NCBI RefSeq assembly: GCF_900638555.1 | Contig: NZ_LR134525.1 | Coordinates: forward strand, 310,001 to 374,000 | DNA length: 64,000 nucleotides | Direction of reading: 5' to 3' | From: Neisseria meningitidis | GTDB lineage: Bacteria; Pseudomonadota; Gammaproteobacteria; Burkholderiales; Neisseriaceae | Shown here: piece by piece, positions 40,854 through 45,371 of the stretch | Layout: each line of letters begins with the position of its first letter | Numbering within the stretch: position 1 is the first letter of the stretch | Notes under the pieces: model-generated | The model's input: only the letters and a program-made list of their open reading frames with translations | What the model was told of the DNA's origin: nothing | Databases searched by the model: none | Made by a program: the position numbers and the translations under genes

Positions 40854-41228
40854 ATGAGTACCGAATACGTTGGCAGCGTCATCCTCTATCTGGGCGCGAA
40901 CGAAGTCCAAGTAACCAAAATCGACGTGAAAGACAACACCGGCAAAAAGCCCGTAAAAACCATGAACCGCACCCGCCGCGTCAAAGGCTTTACCCGCGGC
41001 GTCGGCCAATACGACATTACCTTTACCGCCGTGGTGCCGACCGACGGCACGGCGGTGGACTGGGCAAAGATCGACGACGCCAAAATCAGCCTAGTTCCCG
41101 ACGTGGAAGGCGCGCGCCCGACATCGTACCTCGGCTTCTGCGCCACCGAAGCGGGTGACAGCTATACCGTAGATAATGAGCTGGTGGTGGATGTGACCGG
41201 TTTTGCGATTCGGAAGGTGTTGGAGTAA
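40854..41228 (+). CDS. Tail tube protein (Mu M-like)
   Basis: 124 residues, beta-rich: STEYVGSVILYLGANEVQVTKIDVKDN, MNRTRRVKGFTRGVGQYDITFTAVVP. Its position right after the sheath and the KGFTRG loop fit the Mu tube family. A strong terminator follows, ahead of the XRE/ImmA cassette. Confidence 0.92.
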   Translation: MSTEYVGSVILYLGANEVQVTKIDVKDNTGKKPVKTMNRTRRVKGFTRGVGQYDITFTAVVPTDGTAVDWAKIDDAKISLVPDVEGARPTSYLGFCATEAGDSYTVDNELVVDVTGFAIRKVLE

Positions 41229-41242
41229 AGATTTTCTTGTTA

Positions 41243-41275
41243 ACAGAAGCCGCTGAAGCGGCTTCTGTTGTTTTT
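41243..41275 (+). terminator. Strong terminator after the tail tube gene
   Basis: AACAGAAGCCGC and GCGGCTTCTGTT pair perfectly (12 bp) over TGAA, then GTTTTT. It should block late transcription just before the inserted cassette. Confidence 0.88.
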
Positions 41276-41304
41276 ATTACACTGTTTTTAATAAAATTCA
41301 ATTT

Positions 41305-41323
41305 TTCAAGTAAAATACTTGAA
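41305..41323. promoter_or_regulatory. Palindromic operator candidate of the XRE/ImmA cassette
   Basis: TTCAAGTA-AAA-TACTTGAA is a perfect eight-base inverted repeat. It overlaps a promoter-like region (TTGAAT near 41319; GATATTATT near 41340) 80 bases before the XRE/ImmA start. The half-site ACTTGA recurs twice near 42365-42382, before the small downstream gene, so one regulator may bind both. Confidence 0.65.
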
Positions 41324-41403
41324 TTTTAAAAAAGCCTTTGATATTATTTAGCCACGTTGAATGTGGCAGTAATGCTGCAAACACATGAAAAGGAGCTTGA
41401 ACA

Positions 41404-42240
41404 ATGGGACTGACTAAATTCGGCGCAGCCGTTCGTGAGGCTCGTCGTCAAACTAAACAAACTCTGCAAACGATGGCTGCTACATTAGGTACTTCTCCTG
41501 CTTTTTTGAGTGCTATTGAAACTGGTCGTAGTAAAGTGCCAATGGATTTTGTTAAAAAGGTTGAAGATTTTTTTGAAAACTTAGGCCAACCAATAGACGG
41601 TTTAAAGCAAAAAGCGATGGTTTCTAATGAGAATGTATCGTTAAGCGGCTTAAGCCTGCAACAACAAATGCTGGTGGCTGGTTTTGCCAGTTCAGACTTC
41701 AGCAAAGAGCAATTGGACAAATTTGCTGAATTATTAAGAACCATTCATCATAAAGATTCACAGAAAGAAGGGATGATGCAGCAAACTAATTATTCAATGC
41801 GTGGTGTGCGTGTGGGAATGTTAAGCGAAGAAACGATTCAGTTTTTTGCAAACGAAGCTGCCAAATTTTTGGTAGTAGATAAGCGTACTCGTAAAAAAAT
41901 GGATGCATTTATGGAAATGCTGGAAGAGTATGGCATTGTAATTGATGTTGTTGCTGATTCTGAATGGCTAGTCATTACCAACGCAATGTGCCATAACGGA
42001 ACGATTCTGATGCCTAATAGCCTCTATACTCGCATTTGCAATGGCGAGGACGAGGCTATCTTTATTTTCTTTCATGAATTGGGGCATTTGCTTTTAGGGC
42101 ATAAAGCCATGTTGCATTATAGTGAAGTTCTTCCCACGAAACAGGAAGATTCAGAATGGCAAGCTGATGAGTTTGCAAAATGTATTTTAAGAAACATGGG
42201 AATTAAATATGTACCAGAACAGTTAAGCTTACGATTTTAA
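41404..42240 (+). CDS. XRE helix-turn-helix / ImmA-IrrE-type metallopeptidase fusion
   Basis: 278 residues inserted among tail genes. Residues 1-75 are an XRE domain (FGAAVREARRQTKQTLQTMAATLGTSPAFLSAIETGRSKVP). Residues ~135-265 resemble the ImmA/IrrE metallopeptidase fold, with FFHELGHLLLGH (HExxH zinc site) and the later Glu in EWQADEFAKCIL. Such proteins cleave or control repressors, often as the regulator/antitoxin half of a pair. Codons are AT-rich, unlike neighbouring tail genes. AAGGAG precedes the ATG. It has its own promoter region and is bounded by terminators. The target is unknown. Confidence 0.88.
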   Translation: MGLTKFGAAVREARRQTKQTLQTMAATLGTSPAFLSAIETGRSKVPMDFVKKVEDFFENLGQPIDGLKQKAMVSNENVSLSGLSLQQQMLVAGFASSDFSKEQLDKFAELLRTIHHKDSQKEGMMQQTNYSMRGVRVGMLSEETIQFFANEAAKFLVVDKRTRKKMDAFMEMLEEYGIVIDVVADSEWLVITNAMCHNGTILMPNSLYTRICNGEDEAIFIFFHELGHLLLGHKAMLHYSEVLPTKQEDSEWQADEFAKCILRNMGIKYVPEQLSLRF

Positions 42241-42252
42241 AAAGAGAAATGA

Positions 42253-42317
42253 CTTGGAATGTTGGCGCATCCCAAGCCATTATTGTGGTGTACTAGCATA
42301 CTTCCAATATGCTGTAC
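42253..42317 (+). ncRNA. Two-hairpin leader/ncRNA candidate in the XRE/ImmA cassette
   Basis: The 217 bases between the XRE/ImmA stop and the 47-residue gene encode nothing convincing but hold two hairpins. The first pairs CTTGG-ATG with CAT-CCAAG (42253-42276). The second pairs GTAC-AGCATA with TATGCT-GTAC (42290-42317), with one bulged base. They could be a processed leader, a small RNA or a terminator-free attenuator. Confidence 0.45.
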
Positions 42318-42457
42318 AAGTGTAGTTCTCCATCCGCTAACTGCAAACAGATTTCAAAGAGAAATACTTGAAAGGGACTTGAGTATATATTTTTCAGATT
42401 TGTTTGTCCACGAAAAGCGAAGTGATGGCCACCATTTTTACAATTGGAGGTGCCATT

Positions 42458-42601
42458 ATGGCTATGACTAAGGCTCCCGTTACCCCCGACTTGGTGGACG
42501 ATACAGGTGCATACATTTTTAGAAAGTCTTTTACCACCAAAAGTGGTAAGAAAATTGTTTCTAAAAATGGGAAGCCATTTAAAATTCCTGTGAAAGTTTA
42601 G
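42458..42601 (+). CDS. 47-residue basic protein of the XRE/ImmA cassette
   Basis: The ATG at 42458 has a strong TTGGAGGTGCC ribosome site. MAMTKAPVTPDLVDDTGAYIF is followed by a Lys-rich beta-hairpin-like tail with a KxGKKI/KNGKPF duplication. It is AT-rich and directly followed by a terminator. It is not recognised; co-residence with an XRE/ImmA regulator suggests a partner, effector or target. Confidence 0.7.
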   Translation: MAMTKAPVTPDLVDDTGAYIFRKSFTTKSGKKIVSKNGKPFKIPVKV

Positions 42602-42612
42602 GAATATATAAG

Positions 42613-42633
42613 CCCCGCTAAGCGGGGTTTTTT
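42613..42633 (+). terminator. Terminator closing the XRE/ImmA cassette
   Basis: CCCCGC-TAA-GCGGGG followed by TTTTTT, 11 bases after the small gene's stop. With the terminator at 41243-41275 it isolates the cassette from the tail operon. Confidence 0.88.
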
Positions 42634-42729
42634 CATTACTGACGCGTGTTTAGTCGCCCATCTCATCTCCTTAAGTGACAATTAAGCCTTGATTTATACA
42701 AGGTTTAACCAACGTTTAAGGGCTTTTTT

Positions 42730-43119
42730 ATGTCTGAATTTTCCCCCGAACTCACCCGCGCTATCGAAGATTACGAATTACGCGTTTCTCCCGACCTGAA
42801 AACCGTTGCCGGCCGTCTGAAATACGGCATCGGTGTGATTGATGGCGAAATGCACCATGATTTTTCCATGCACCTTTTAACCGTGCGCGAGGACATGGCG
42901 ATTGATCCGCAACTTGAAGGCCAGCCGCGGCTGGTTGCCGCCTATGCCGCGTCACTGGATAAATTGGGTGGTTTAACAGCCGAATCTTTGACACCTGATT
43001 TGCTGCTTGATGAGATGGCTGCTGCTGACTTTGACGCGCTGTACTGGGCGCAAGAGCTGCTGCAAAAAAAGCGGCTTTGCCCGCACCCCGCGCCGACCGT
43101 TACCGATACGCCGTCTTAA
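42730..43119 (+). CDS. Tail assembly chaperone, short form (Mu gp41-like)
   Basis: 129 residues: FSPELTRAIEDYELRVSPDLKTVAGRLKYG... DALYWAQELLQKKRLCP. Its position between tube and tape measure, plus a frameshift-linked partner frame, is the conserved chaperone plan of tailed phages. The slippery site lies at codons 112-114. GCTTTTTT precedes the ATG without a strong ribosome site. Confidence 0.82.
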   Translation: MSEFSPELTRAIEDYELRVSPDLKTVAGRLKYGIGVIDGEMHHDFSMHLLTVREDMAIDPQLEGQPRLVAAYAASLDKLGGLTAESLTPDLLLDEMAAADFDALYWAQELLQKKRLCPHPAPTVTDTPS

Positions 43120-43325
43120 AACTCGGCCGATACGGCATCACGCCCGCCCAAATCGACGGCATGACCCAACCCGAACTGGAAGGCTGGTTAAAACAGGCCG
43201 ACTTAATCGAGCGCGGCCGTGCCGCGCCGGTAGTGATGCCGTGGTTTATTCCTGCGAACGTCAAACCATCTGCCGCCACGGGCGGTCAGACCCAAACCTT
43301 TATCAGCAAGCGTAAGAAAAAATGA
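42730..43325 (+). CDS. Tail assembly chaperone, -1 frameshift fusion (198 residues)
   Basis: The heptamer A-AAA-AAG at 43065-43071 is in the correct frame (codons CAA AAA AAG). Slipping back one base joins ...ELLQKK to AALPAPRADRYRYAVLKLGRYGITPAQIDGMTQPELEG and reads to the stop at 43325, overlapping the tape measure start. Fused forms of this kind are established for lambda G/GT and reported for Mu gp41/42. The signal and both frames are seen here; the product is inferred. Confidence 0.75.
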
Positions 43326-45371
43326 GCCAGCATAGTGTAGAACTGGTTGCTAAGTTTAAGGACAACGCCACGCCCGGCCTCCGCCGTTTGGCGGCGGAAG
43401 CGGAAAAAACAGGCAGCCGGCAGTTGCAGAAAGCCGCAGCAGTCAAGCTGAAACATCAAGAGATGTACAGCGCTACCGCCCGTTTGGGCATCCGTACTGA
43501 ACACCAAATCCGCCGTGAAATCCAACAAACGCAGGCGGCTTACAACCGTTTGGCCAAAAGCGGCATGGCTTCGCAACGCGAACTGGCGAGGGCTGCACAG
43601 ATAACGCGCAGCCGTGTACGCGAGCTGACTGCCGAAATCAACGGCGGTGCAAGCCGTTTGCAACGTATCGGTTCGGGAGTCCGGACAATCGGGCGCGGTG
43701 TGGCCGGCGTGGCGGCGGGTGCGGCGGCAGGAGCTTATGTATTGGCGCAGCCGGTCAACCGGACGATGGACTTTGACACATCATTGCGTCATGCCGCCAA
43801 TACCATGTATGCAGGCAAGAGCATGGCCGAGAAGCGCGCAGGTATGGAGGAAATCAAGAAATCGGTCATGGATGCCGCCTATGTCGGCGGAACGACGCGT
43901 GATGCCGCTTTGGAAGCCATGAATACAATGGTGGCCAGCGGAGCGATGAGCGACGAAGCCGTGAAAAAACTGCTGCCGACCGTTATGAAAACCGCCACCG
44001 CCGCCAATACGGAAGGAAACGATATTGCCAACATCGTAACCAAGGCGTTGCAGGCGGGGTTTAAAGAGGCGGATATTCCGTCGCTGCTTGACCGTGCGTT
44101 GCAATCGGGCGCGGACGGCGGTTTTGAATTGAAAGACATGTCGCGCTGGCTGCCGCAGCAGTTGGCTGCAATGAAAAACGCCGGTATGGGCGCGACGCTG
44201 GATAATTTTTCCAGCCTGCTCAATGCCAACCAATTGTCGTTTATGACGGCGGGCAGTACCGACGAAGCCGGCAACAACTTAGTCAACCTGCTGGCAAAAA
44301 TCAACAGTCAGGATATTGTGACCAAAGCCAAAAAAATTACCATCAACGGCAAAGAAGGTTTCGATTTCACCGCTAGCATGAACAAACGGCAGGCAGCAGG
44401 CATGAACTCGCTTGATGCGCTGGTGGACATTGTCGGAGAAATCACGGCCAAGGATAAGAAGTCCGCCGCTCTGATGAAACAGATTAATGCCGCGCAAGGC
44501 GATGAAGCCAAGCTGGCTTTGCTGGAAAACCAAAAGGCCTTGGTAGACGGCACTGCCATCGGGAAGCTGGTTTCCGACCGTCAGGCATTGATGGCATTGC
44601 TGGCATTGGTCAACAACAAACAGGAACTCACCCGCCTGCAAGCAGGCCAGACAAATGCGGCGGGTGCGGTGGACGGTGCATACGGATTCGTCGCCGAAGG
44701 TTCGGGGTTTAAAAAATCCCAATTCTCCCTCGCCAAATCAGAAGCCGAATACGGCGCATTTGAAAAATTCAGCGACCGCATCGGCGGCGGCCGGTACAAG
44801 CTCTATGTTTGGGGGCGGCGGCCTGCTTTCCAAACTGTTCGGCGGAAGCAGCAGAACCTTACAGGCGGGCCGTCTGATGCCCTCGGCCTCCTCGCTAGGC
44901 CCCGTCGCGCTCGGTGCGACACCGTTGGCCGTAATGGGCGGGGCAACCCATTTGGCGGGGCAGCGCGACAAATATGCGGAATGGTCAAAACCGTTTGCTA
45001 AATTATCGTCTTGGCTGGAAAGTATCCTGCCTGATTTTTCAGCGGGGGCGAAAGCCGAATATCTGCGCAAACGTGAAGAACTGGGCGGCAATAATGCCCC
45101 GCTCGATAGTCCTGTTTTAAAAGAGAGTATGGCGCAGCTTAACCAATCGGCACAAACCAACCAGCAGGCAAGCCAGCAGTATGTGCAGGCGGCGGCGGAG
45201 AATCAGGCGGCAACGGCGCAGATTACCGGCGCGGCGGCACAGATGACGGCTGCTGCCGCACAAATGCAGGCGGCGGCAGGCAAGCCGATTCCGATTACCG
45301 TTACTGTGCAAAACGGCAACATTATGGCCTATGTGAATCAGGCAGTAGAACGCAACAGTAGGAAAAATTAA
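43322..45371 (+). pseudogene. Tape measure protein gene, broken by a one-base insertion
   Basis: The first frame (43322-45001) encodes MSQHSVELVAKFKDNATPGLRRLAAEAEK, a membrane-like segment GVAGVAAGAAAGAYVLAQPV near 140 and the phage tail tape measure core (MDFDTSLRHAANTMYAGKSM). After IGGG near codon 490 it reads nonsense. The natural continuation (GTSSMFGGGGLLSKLFGGS ... YVNQAVERNSRKN) is in the +1 frame, ending 45371. An extra C at 44791-44792, in a GGCGGCGGCCGG run, explains the break. The intact protein would be about 682 residues and sets tail length. Confidence 0.85.

Follow-up and report, generated by a model that had tools for sequence, protein, structure and literature searches.

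Several described systems pair a repressor or helix-turn-helix domain with a metallopeptidase of the ImmA or M78 type. In one of them, the protease CapP is activated by single-stranded DNA and cleaves the repressor CapH, which derepresses the adjacent pathway, as set out in the accessible part of its description (PMC13373217). The 64,000-nucleotide stretch of Neisseria meningitidis DNA analysed here (contig NZ_LR134525.1, positions 310,001 to 374,000; hereafter the window) is part of one contig in a 2.19 Mb genome of the genus Neisseria. At positions 41243..42633 it carries a prophage cassette in which an XRE-ImmA pair is followed by a structured RNA and by a gene for a small basic protein, called gene 3 below. 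Judged by sequence comparison, the constant part of this cassette is the RNA together with the small protein, and the XRE-ImmA pair is one cargo placed in front of it.

The interval that separates the stop of immA from the start of gene 3, mostly 165-240 nucleotides across loci, was described in an earlier note on this DNA as a non-coding stretch with two hairpins. The hairpins are present, but the interval holds more, namely a covarying, pseudoknotted RNA that spans about 42253-42434 of the window (all features given here lie on the + strand). Hairpin 1 (42253..42276) and hairpin 2 (42290..42316) are read from sequence and fold, and the class B counterpart of hairpin 1 is an 8-bp stem with 98.7% of cells paired. 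Hairpin 3 (42323..42339) has an 11-nucleotide loop and is 95.0% paired across 20 sequences, with five of six pairs changed on both sides; in the window copy only its inner three pairs form unbroken. The long stem P4 (42343..42407) is 90.4% paired, with double changes in 5/8 pairs; its 5' strand occupies about 42343-42353 and its 3' strand about 42397-42407, ending in a conserved TTGTCC. According to the alignment, loop bases 42330-42334 of hairpin 3 form the 5' side of the pseudoknot and pair with GATGG at 42424..42428, at 99.0% paired and with four of five pairs changed on both sides (20 sequences). Hairpin 3 and P4 were also predicted independently by RNAalifold from the alignment alone.

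Two alignments carry this structure. Class A (MAFFT alignment A10, 20 sequences, not fitted to the structure) draws on Neisseria, a Halomonas relative, a Pseudomonas phage and other sources. Its cells are 94.2% paired with a covariation of 0.625, and 14 of the 19 pairs show changes on both sides. The pseudoknot was first spotted by eye on the same sequences, so the controls matter: sliding the structure along the alignment gave 35.5-54.9% paired and a covariation of 0.076-0.174, and none of 500 shuffles reached the observed score. An earlier class A alignment (A7, 17 sequences) agrees, with 89.3% paired and a covariation of 0.617. Class B (alignment A12, 29 sequences of enterobacterial types) is 93.1% paired against 31.4-53.2% in slid controls, with a covariation of 0.203 against 0.038-0.070. 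Its pseudoknot reaches 95.9% paired, with 4/5 pairs doubly changed, and its pseudoknot partners lie in reversed order around P4 relative to class A. Further RNA types, among them those of L030, L034 and L063, were folded one by one.

Within class B, hairpins 1 and 2 of a locus carry the same loop in 24/29 cases, and this loop differs between loci. In class B alignment columns the sharing extends to nine of 14 loop types, compared with a shuffled mean of 0.99 and none of 2000 shuffles; a crude automatic hairpin finder reported a common loop of at least 5 in 11/59 loci. A likeness of some 7-nucleotide loops to anticodon loops was dropped, many loops having 6 nucleotides. Rfam 15 returned no family at the gathering threshold over the RNA of the window and of 12 loci, and a relaxed E-value gave sub-threshold matches only (8 in window positions 41000-43000 and 2 in six further loci). 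No tandem repeats were found within 42200-42660 of the window. Separately, two matches to the type II hammerhead ribozyme exceed the Rfam threshold in the phage contig L094, at 2178-2242 and 2548-2612.

Linkage of this RNA to gene 3, and the exchange of the genes in front of both, emerge from searches in either direction. Searches with gene 3 (alignments A8 and A9) collected 84 loci (30 and 54), with ImmA upstream in 64 and XRE in 61. The other 20 carry gene 3 without ImmA, two of them cut by the contig end (L270 with 423 and L345 with 19 nucleotides upstream). Gene 3 is therefore not the specific partner of XRE/ImmA for which it had been taken; the RNA is its tighter partner. In ten of these 20 loci, RNA and gene 3 stand behind HicAB-, HigBA- or MqsA-type genes: a set of HicA, HicB and a third gene in L314, L315, L317, L323, L324 and L325, Gp49/HigB-type and HTH_37 genes in L308, and an unknown gene with an MqsA-type helix-turn-helix gene in L273, L277 and L280. 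The upstream genes of L289 and L291, also without ImmA, were not recognised. These family assignments were computed on one representative per group (8 proteins) and extended by eye to the rest. The HicA, HicB, Gp49 and HTH_37 representatives pass Pfam cut-offs and the MqsA match (E 5e-11) falls below its cut-off, while the third gene of the HicAB set and the first gene of the MqsA group gave no family match with one representative each. An annotated Escherichia coli chromosome displays the same arrangement, in the order tRNA-Ser, HicA, HicB, a hypothetical gene, the match to RNA and gene 3, and an integrase.

The converse search with a class B RNA-only pattern found 40 loci, of which 37 have gene 3; in the remaining three (L428, L431 and L437) only 20-74 nucleotides are left past the match. 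ImmA is absent from 14 of the 40, 13 of them with gene 3 and one cut locus without it. The class A pattern matched 61 stretches; seven of these are contigs already collected, and model R1 was applied to the remaining 54. R1 matched 18/54 at E <=0.01, comprising 11 at E <=2e-12 and seven weak matches (E 0.003-0.009), and none of the other 36. Protein type goes with RNA class in the pattern search: gene 3 lacks cysteine in 19 of 20 class A loci (not found in one) and is cysteine-rich in all 29 of class B, a match that holds across different cargo.

Some neighbouring arrangements are recorded here as observations in their own right. An unknown protein of about 300 residues is the cargo in six of the 20 loci without ImmA (L310, L312, L313, L326, L330 and L332), about 1.1 kb before gene 3; the one tested had no Pfam or NCBIfam match. 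In L353 (reverse complement, ~1330-1640), a gene 3 homologue follows two hairpins that by eye share a loop, and no XRE-ImmA occurs among the upstream open reading frames listed. In L407, two short reading frames 3' of gene 3 resemble by eye a RelE/HigB-type toxin and a helix-turn-helix antitoxin.

Gene 3 itself is the 47-residue basic protein with a strong ribosome site that had been pointed out before: an open reading frame at 42458..42601, preceded by a good Shine-Dalgarno sequence, TTGGAGG, at 42444-42450. A PHROG family of unknown function, phrog_4533, matches residues 8-65 of a longer reading (42404-42601), and translation may therefore begin farther upstream. Across the family the protein measures about 36-51 residues. 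With 27 sequences as query, the family search returned 206 proteins, and none of the 120 of these listed had a Pfam domain; names among the matches listed are hypothetical or uncharacterised, apart from one called ribosomal L36 by a source. An AF2 model has four strands (predicted local distance difference test, pLDDT, 74), and a fold search with it gave no significant match. Against PDB sequences only insignificant matches appeared, including ribosomal L35 (E 0.34) and L36 (E 0.48), which were not used. A defence library had no match to gene 3 or to one cysteine-rich reading frame, the only such neighbours scanned. In L034, L036, L040 and L064, two tandem small cysteine-rich genes lie 3' of immA rather than one.

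The most frequent cargo, XRE-ImmA, was reported earlier as an XRE domain fused to an HELGH peptidase. In the window this is so, since both domains share one reading frame (41404-42240, 278 residues); relatives carry two overlapping genes. The XRE helix-turn-helix part (41404..41772; Pfam HTH_31 above cut-off) corresponds to a separate gene of about 125-130 residues in relatives, and the ImmA/M78 zinc metallopeptidase part (41773..42240; PF06114 above cut-off, phrog_87, AF2 pLDDT 89), here in frame with XRE, to one of about 155 (155-160 in L003-L010). L003 and L004, otherwise identical across the aligned cassette, have XRE and ImmA as two overlapping reading frames, as do L005-L010 with XRE counted from a conserved ATG. 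The separate 155-residue ImmA heads a protein cluster representing 219 contigs. The fusion is thus local to the window copy. Fused XRE-ImmA proteins of 281-365 residues and about 30% identity exist elsewhere (P0057-P0078), and the fused form in the window therefore need not be inactive. No solved homologue of ImmA was found by sequence with the ImmA profile at E 0.01; a fold search ranks zinc metallopeptidases first, none of them at E <=0.001.

Three scans with ImmA alignments against viral contigs covered the best 80 of 155, 160 and 157 relatives, largely the same contigs. With the loci from genomes added, the set comprised 99 loci, among which 81 immA DNA sequences are distinct. Leaving out L028 (ImmA broken to 62 residues) and L102 gave 79 ImmA loci; these counts are of sequences, many from closely related contigs, and not of independent events. 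HExGH is present in 76/79, and XRE was detected directly upstream in 75; of the other four, three start at a contig edge and L051 has an XRE outside the search pattern. A gene 3 homologue lies downstream in 70/79, which bears out the proposed co-inheritance in the forward direction, from ImmA to gene 3.

ImmA ends in a motif of the sliding-clamp-binding type. Bacterial clamp binders follow a consensus QL[S/D]LF, usually C-terminal in translesion polymerases, according to the portion of the source consulted (PMC3716654). The window protein has QLSLRF on a disordered tail (42220..42237), and the comparison of tails defines the pattern Q[LIM]x[LF], followed by F or L directly or one residue later. 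Its strict form lies within the last 18 residues of 67/73 distinct ImmA proteins, whereas shuffled tails gave a mean of 2.1 and a maximum of 6, and other windows 0/1497. In the AlphaFold model of the ImmA part, mean pLDDT is 89 and residues 151-154 fall below 50. ImmA therefore has a motif of the consensus type on a flexible terminus, and this motif and its position suggest that ImmA may dock on the sliding clamp. A literature search, as far as the sources were accessible, gave no link between ImmA proteins and the clamp.

At the 5' end of the cassette, the perfect palindrome proposed earlier as an operator is present as TTCAAGTA-AAA-TACTTGAA at 41305-41323 (feature 41305..41347). It overlaps a -35-like TTGAAT at 41319, with a -10-like TATTAT at 41342-41347, and is a candidate binding site for XRE. 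Arms resembling TTCAA/TTGAA also occur in eight aligned relatives, some of them altered. The recurrence of an operator half-site ahead of gene 3, once taken as a sign that one regulator controls both, did not hold up: it is a single 11-nucleotide match located inside an RNA stem, and in L008, the closest relative that has this small gene, only AAATACTT of it is kept. Shared control through this site is therefore unsupported, and the half-site was rejected as proof of co-regulation.

The cassette is a self-contained insert in a tail operon, as had been claimed. The tail tube gene (phrog_185) lies 5' and a tail assembly chaperone gene (phrog_508) 3', with a sheath gene (phrog_165) farther upstream, in a prophage that we take from its gene order to be Mu-like; by eye, the block is AT-rich. 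Its borders are formed by intrinsic-terminator-like hairpins, a 13-pair stem and T run directly 3' of the tube gene (41241..41270) and a 9-pair stem and T run on the right (42610..42630). From immA to gene 3 the window shows no terminator-like site on the + strand, and both genes may therefore share a transcript. A junction survey searched for the tube protein in 46 Neisseria genomes and found it in 11 genomes at 13 places; the junction was tried at seven, and the tube end could be matched at four. At L357 and L358 the chaperone gene follows about 93 nucleotides after the tube gene (by eye), with no cassette between, and the left terminator-like hairpin was not seen in these empty junctions. 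L355 has other DNA in the junction and the chaperone 388 nucleotides beyond the tube stop; in L356 other DNA follows the tube gene, and the chaperone was not found within the locus. The window copy and L003 hold XRE-ImmA-RNA-gene 3, and L006 and L007 hold XRE-ImmA with a different small cysteine-rich reading frame. Because the junction is empty or differently filled in some relatives, the earlier description of a cassette set into the tail operon holds.

Three observations concern prophage tail genes. The tube proteins of the two Neisseria genomes with L355 and L356 are 99% identical, and other DNA occupies the junction there. The tape-measure gene is split in the window (43322-45371) and in L003 into 559 residues and an overlapping 238-residue reading frame, and is single in L006 and L007 (710 and 674 residues), so the window prophage may not make particles. 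Lastly, the window's own genome holds a second tail-tube homologue, 38% identical (G000:C1:900232-900591), which suggests another prophage there.

Components of the cassette are rare in the wide genome sample, where counts include the window's own genome. Among 46 Neisseria genomes, ImmA occurs in four, gene 3 in two and the RNA in two. The ImmA profile matched 2/369 genomes of the class, and gene 3 was found in 2/398 genomes of the phylum, as the window copy and L353. The RNA model, run on the same 398 genomes, gave the window copy and L351 (E 7e-4); the latter was rejected as a copy, overlapping a 348-residue reading frame with no gene 3 beside it. Of 5426 E. coli genomes, 49 contain 80% or more of the L039 module. 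One such region has hokD adjoining, then DUF968, RusA and an antitermination gene, and gene 3 is not annotated in it. RNA and gene 3 of L308 occur in 56/5426 E. coli genomes, and 39 of the 40 matches listed overlap an ImmA gene. ImmA was found in 6/50,697 phage records, two being the same phage, and DNA of RNA and gene 3 in one phage record; on plasmids, none of 72,556 records had ImmA at E 1e-5.

The comparisons establish which genes are present and linked, the fold of the RNA, the conservation of the ImmA motif, the swapping of cargo and the site of insertion. From these we infer a model in which the cassette is a prophage moron with two halves, each of which can be exchanged. In the 5' half, XRE would bind the palindrome over the -35 box and keep the cassette low, while ImmA would be held at replication or repair sites by its sliding-clamp-type tail. 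DNA damage, or an incoming phage that disturbs replication, would lead ImmA to cleave XRE and transcription to rise. In the 3' half, the pseudoknotted RNA and the small protein would form one unit, most simply with the protein binding the RNA, and the cassette as a whole may serve in phage defence. Joint action of RNA and gene 3 is favoured because both travel together across cargo, and the same 3' half behind unrelated toxin-antitoxin genes would therefore make it a general companion of such cassettes. We give this account, in which XRE represses, clamp-docked ImmA destroys XRE under stress, and RNA and small protein act together, roughly even chances of being right as a whole. A broader version is put forward tentatively and with less confidence: the RNA and its cognate micro-protein would be a small ribonucleoprotein, a mobile companion to numerous phage-borne cassettes, of toxin-antitoxin or stress type, that are unrelated to one another; XRE and clamp-docked ImmA would be the commonest switch, and cargo would be exchanged in front.

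Several observations weigh against this account. Nine of the 79 ImmA loci lack gene 3 (L009, L010, L023, L024, L025, L031, L033, L038 and L081); L009, L024 and L025 have another small cysteine-rich reading frame in its place, and by sequence L009, L005 and L023 represent one prophage region. L102, a distant XRE-ImmA pair, has no gene 3 among the reading frames listed. L006 and L007 differ after hairpin 1 and carry another small reading frame, and L378, one of the 11 strong R1 matches, has the RNA behind XRE-ImmA with an unrelated small reading frame. The agreement of RNA class with protein type is not independent evidence, because both also follow host lineage. One of the five class A measures, the number of further pair types, was reached by 92/500 shuffles. 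The XRE-ImmA junction of the window differs from that of aligned relatives, and regulation may be altered there, while the clamp-type motif could serve another partner. PADLOC matches to the CapH/CapP models are weak and partial (capH E 2.6e-5, capP E 6.2e-5), and XRE scores better with PADLOC HTH_VI (E 2e-7).

The rival explanations differ chiefly in what they make of the RNA. It might act in cis, as a leader through which translation of gene 3 is controlled, either like a riboswitch or autogenously in the manner of a ribosomal-protein leader, with gene 3 as the sole effector. Gene 3 follows the RNA in 19/20 class A and 29/29 class B loci, the class A pseudoknot strand ends about 20-30 nucleotides ahead of the start codon, and the absence of a terminator-like site after immA in the window is also in its favour. 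However, the two simple forms of such control, Shine-Dalgarno occlusion and a start-codon hairpin, were not supported by shuffle tests. Pairing of the Shine-Dalgarno sequence by the adjacent segment was no better than in shuffled sequences (10/19 above the mean), and the start-codon hairpin is marginal in the 18 class A sequences tested, where 84/2000 shuffles did as well, and absent from the 15 of class B (1881/2000). Since neither translational model held, three readings are left to be weighed, namely a particle of RNA and protein, a leader that works in some other way and a type III-like pair, and we regard the leader as rather unlikely. In the type III-like reading, the pseudoknotted RNA would neutralise a basic micro-toxin, as a minimal toxin-antitoxin system beside another toxin-antitoxin pair. 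The order of RNA and small basic protein, the pseudoknot and the type II toxin-antitoxin genes nearby in some loci fit this arrangement. Toxins of type III systems are endoribonucleases, unlike gene 3, a protein of 36-51 residues that has no family, PDB-sequence or fold match, and the window RNA lacks tandem repeats; this reading is improbable.

Somewhat less probable still is that the 3' unit takes no part in defence or stress and rides along as a selfish or structural element, such as an insulating terminator or a recombination target for cassette exchange. The modular exchange of cargo would suit it, as would the loop that hairpins 1 and 2 share in 24/29 class B loci and that changes between loci; the conserved protein reading frame and the intricate RNA fold speak against it. 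The lowest probability goes to a RosmerTA-like toxin-antitoxin system formed by XRE-ImmA and gene 3, with gene 3 as the toxin. RmrA, an ImmA-domain antitoxin with diverse toxins in the accessible text of PMC10440598, has PADLOC models that match the fused window protein at E 6.4e-5. Such scores are weak, and in several cases only the peptidase is matched; relatives encode XRE and ImmA as separate genes, and 20/84 gene 3 loci (two cut) have no ImmA. Moreover, the tested RmrT is membrane-depolarising according to the same partial text (PMC10440598), whereas gene 3 encodes a small basic protein whose model shows beta strands.

The analysis contributes an RNA fold that matched no Rfam family where scanned and a family of small proteins that has no name, both present in phages and genomes from Neisseria, Pseudomonas, relatives of Halomonas and enterobacteria, E. 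coli among them. The open-licence literature, as far as it was accessible, yielded no account of such an RNA, nor of a unit of RNA and small protein shared by different toxin-antitoxin pairs, in keeping with the earlier note's view of the cassette as a candidate undescribed system. The RNA-protein pair may be an overlooked companion unit and not a one-off. Its position behind several different toxin-antitoxin pairs would offer a common handle on the control or deployment of phage-borne cassettes of this kind, and the clamp-type tail of ImmA suggests a testable route by which such proteases might sense replication trouble.

Compared with known systems, type II toxin-antitoxin genes of the HicAB, HigBA and MqsRA kinds take the place of XRE-ImmA at some loci, ahead of this RNA and gene 3. 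To our knowledge, the usual descriptions of these modules omit such an RNA and small gene. With type III toxin-antitoxin systems of the ToxIN family, the locus shares a pseudoknotted RNA directly upstream of a protein gene; it differs in that the window RNA shows no tandem repeats and in the size of the protein (36-51 residues). RosmerTA (RmrA/RmrT) offers a helix-turn-helix and ImmA domain, varied partners and a phage-borne example (accessible text of PMC10440598), but here XRE and ImmA are two genes in relatives and gene 3 also occurs without ImmA. The RmrA models give the fused protein an E-value of 6.4e-5 and ImmA on its own no better than 2.7e-4. The ImmR/ImmA pair of a Bacillus subtilis conjugative element likewise joins a repressor and an antirepressor protease on a mobile element, according to the same source in part (PMC10440598), although RNA and gene 3 follow here and integrase control is not part of the present picture. 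CapH and CapP are regulators of CBASS (cyclic-oligonucleotide-based anti-phage signalling system) and other immune operons, whereas in the loci read no immune operon was recognised and the RNA and gene 3 follow instead. The clamp-type tail of ImmA is likewise absent from the accessible part of the CapP description (PMC13373217). With the CapH/CapP and RmrA models scoring weakly, we therefore claim likeness and not membership. In the likeness to CapH/CapP, an XRE-type repressor and an M78 metallopeptidase are encoded together at this locus, and by analogy derepression of the cassette would be expected on DNA damage.

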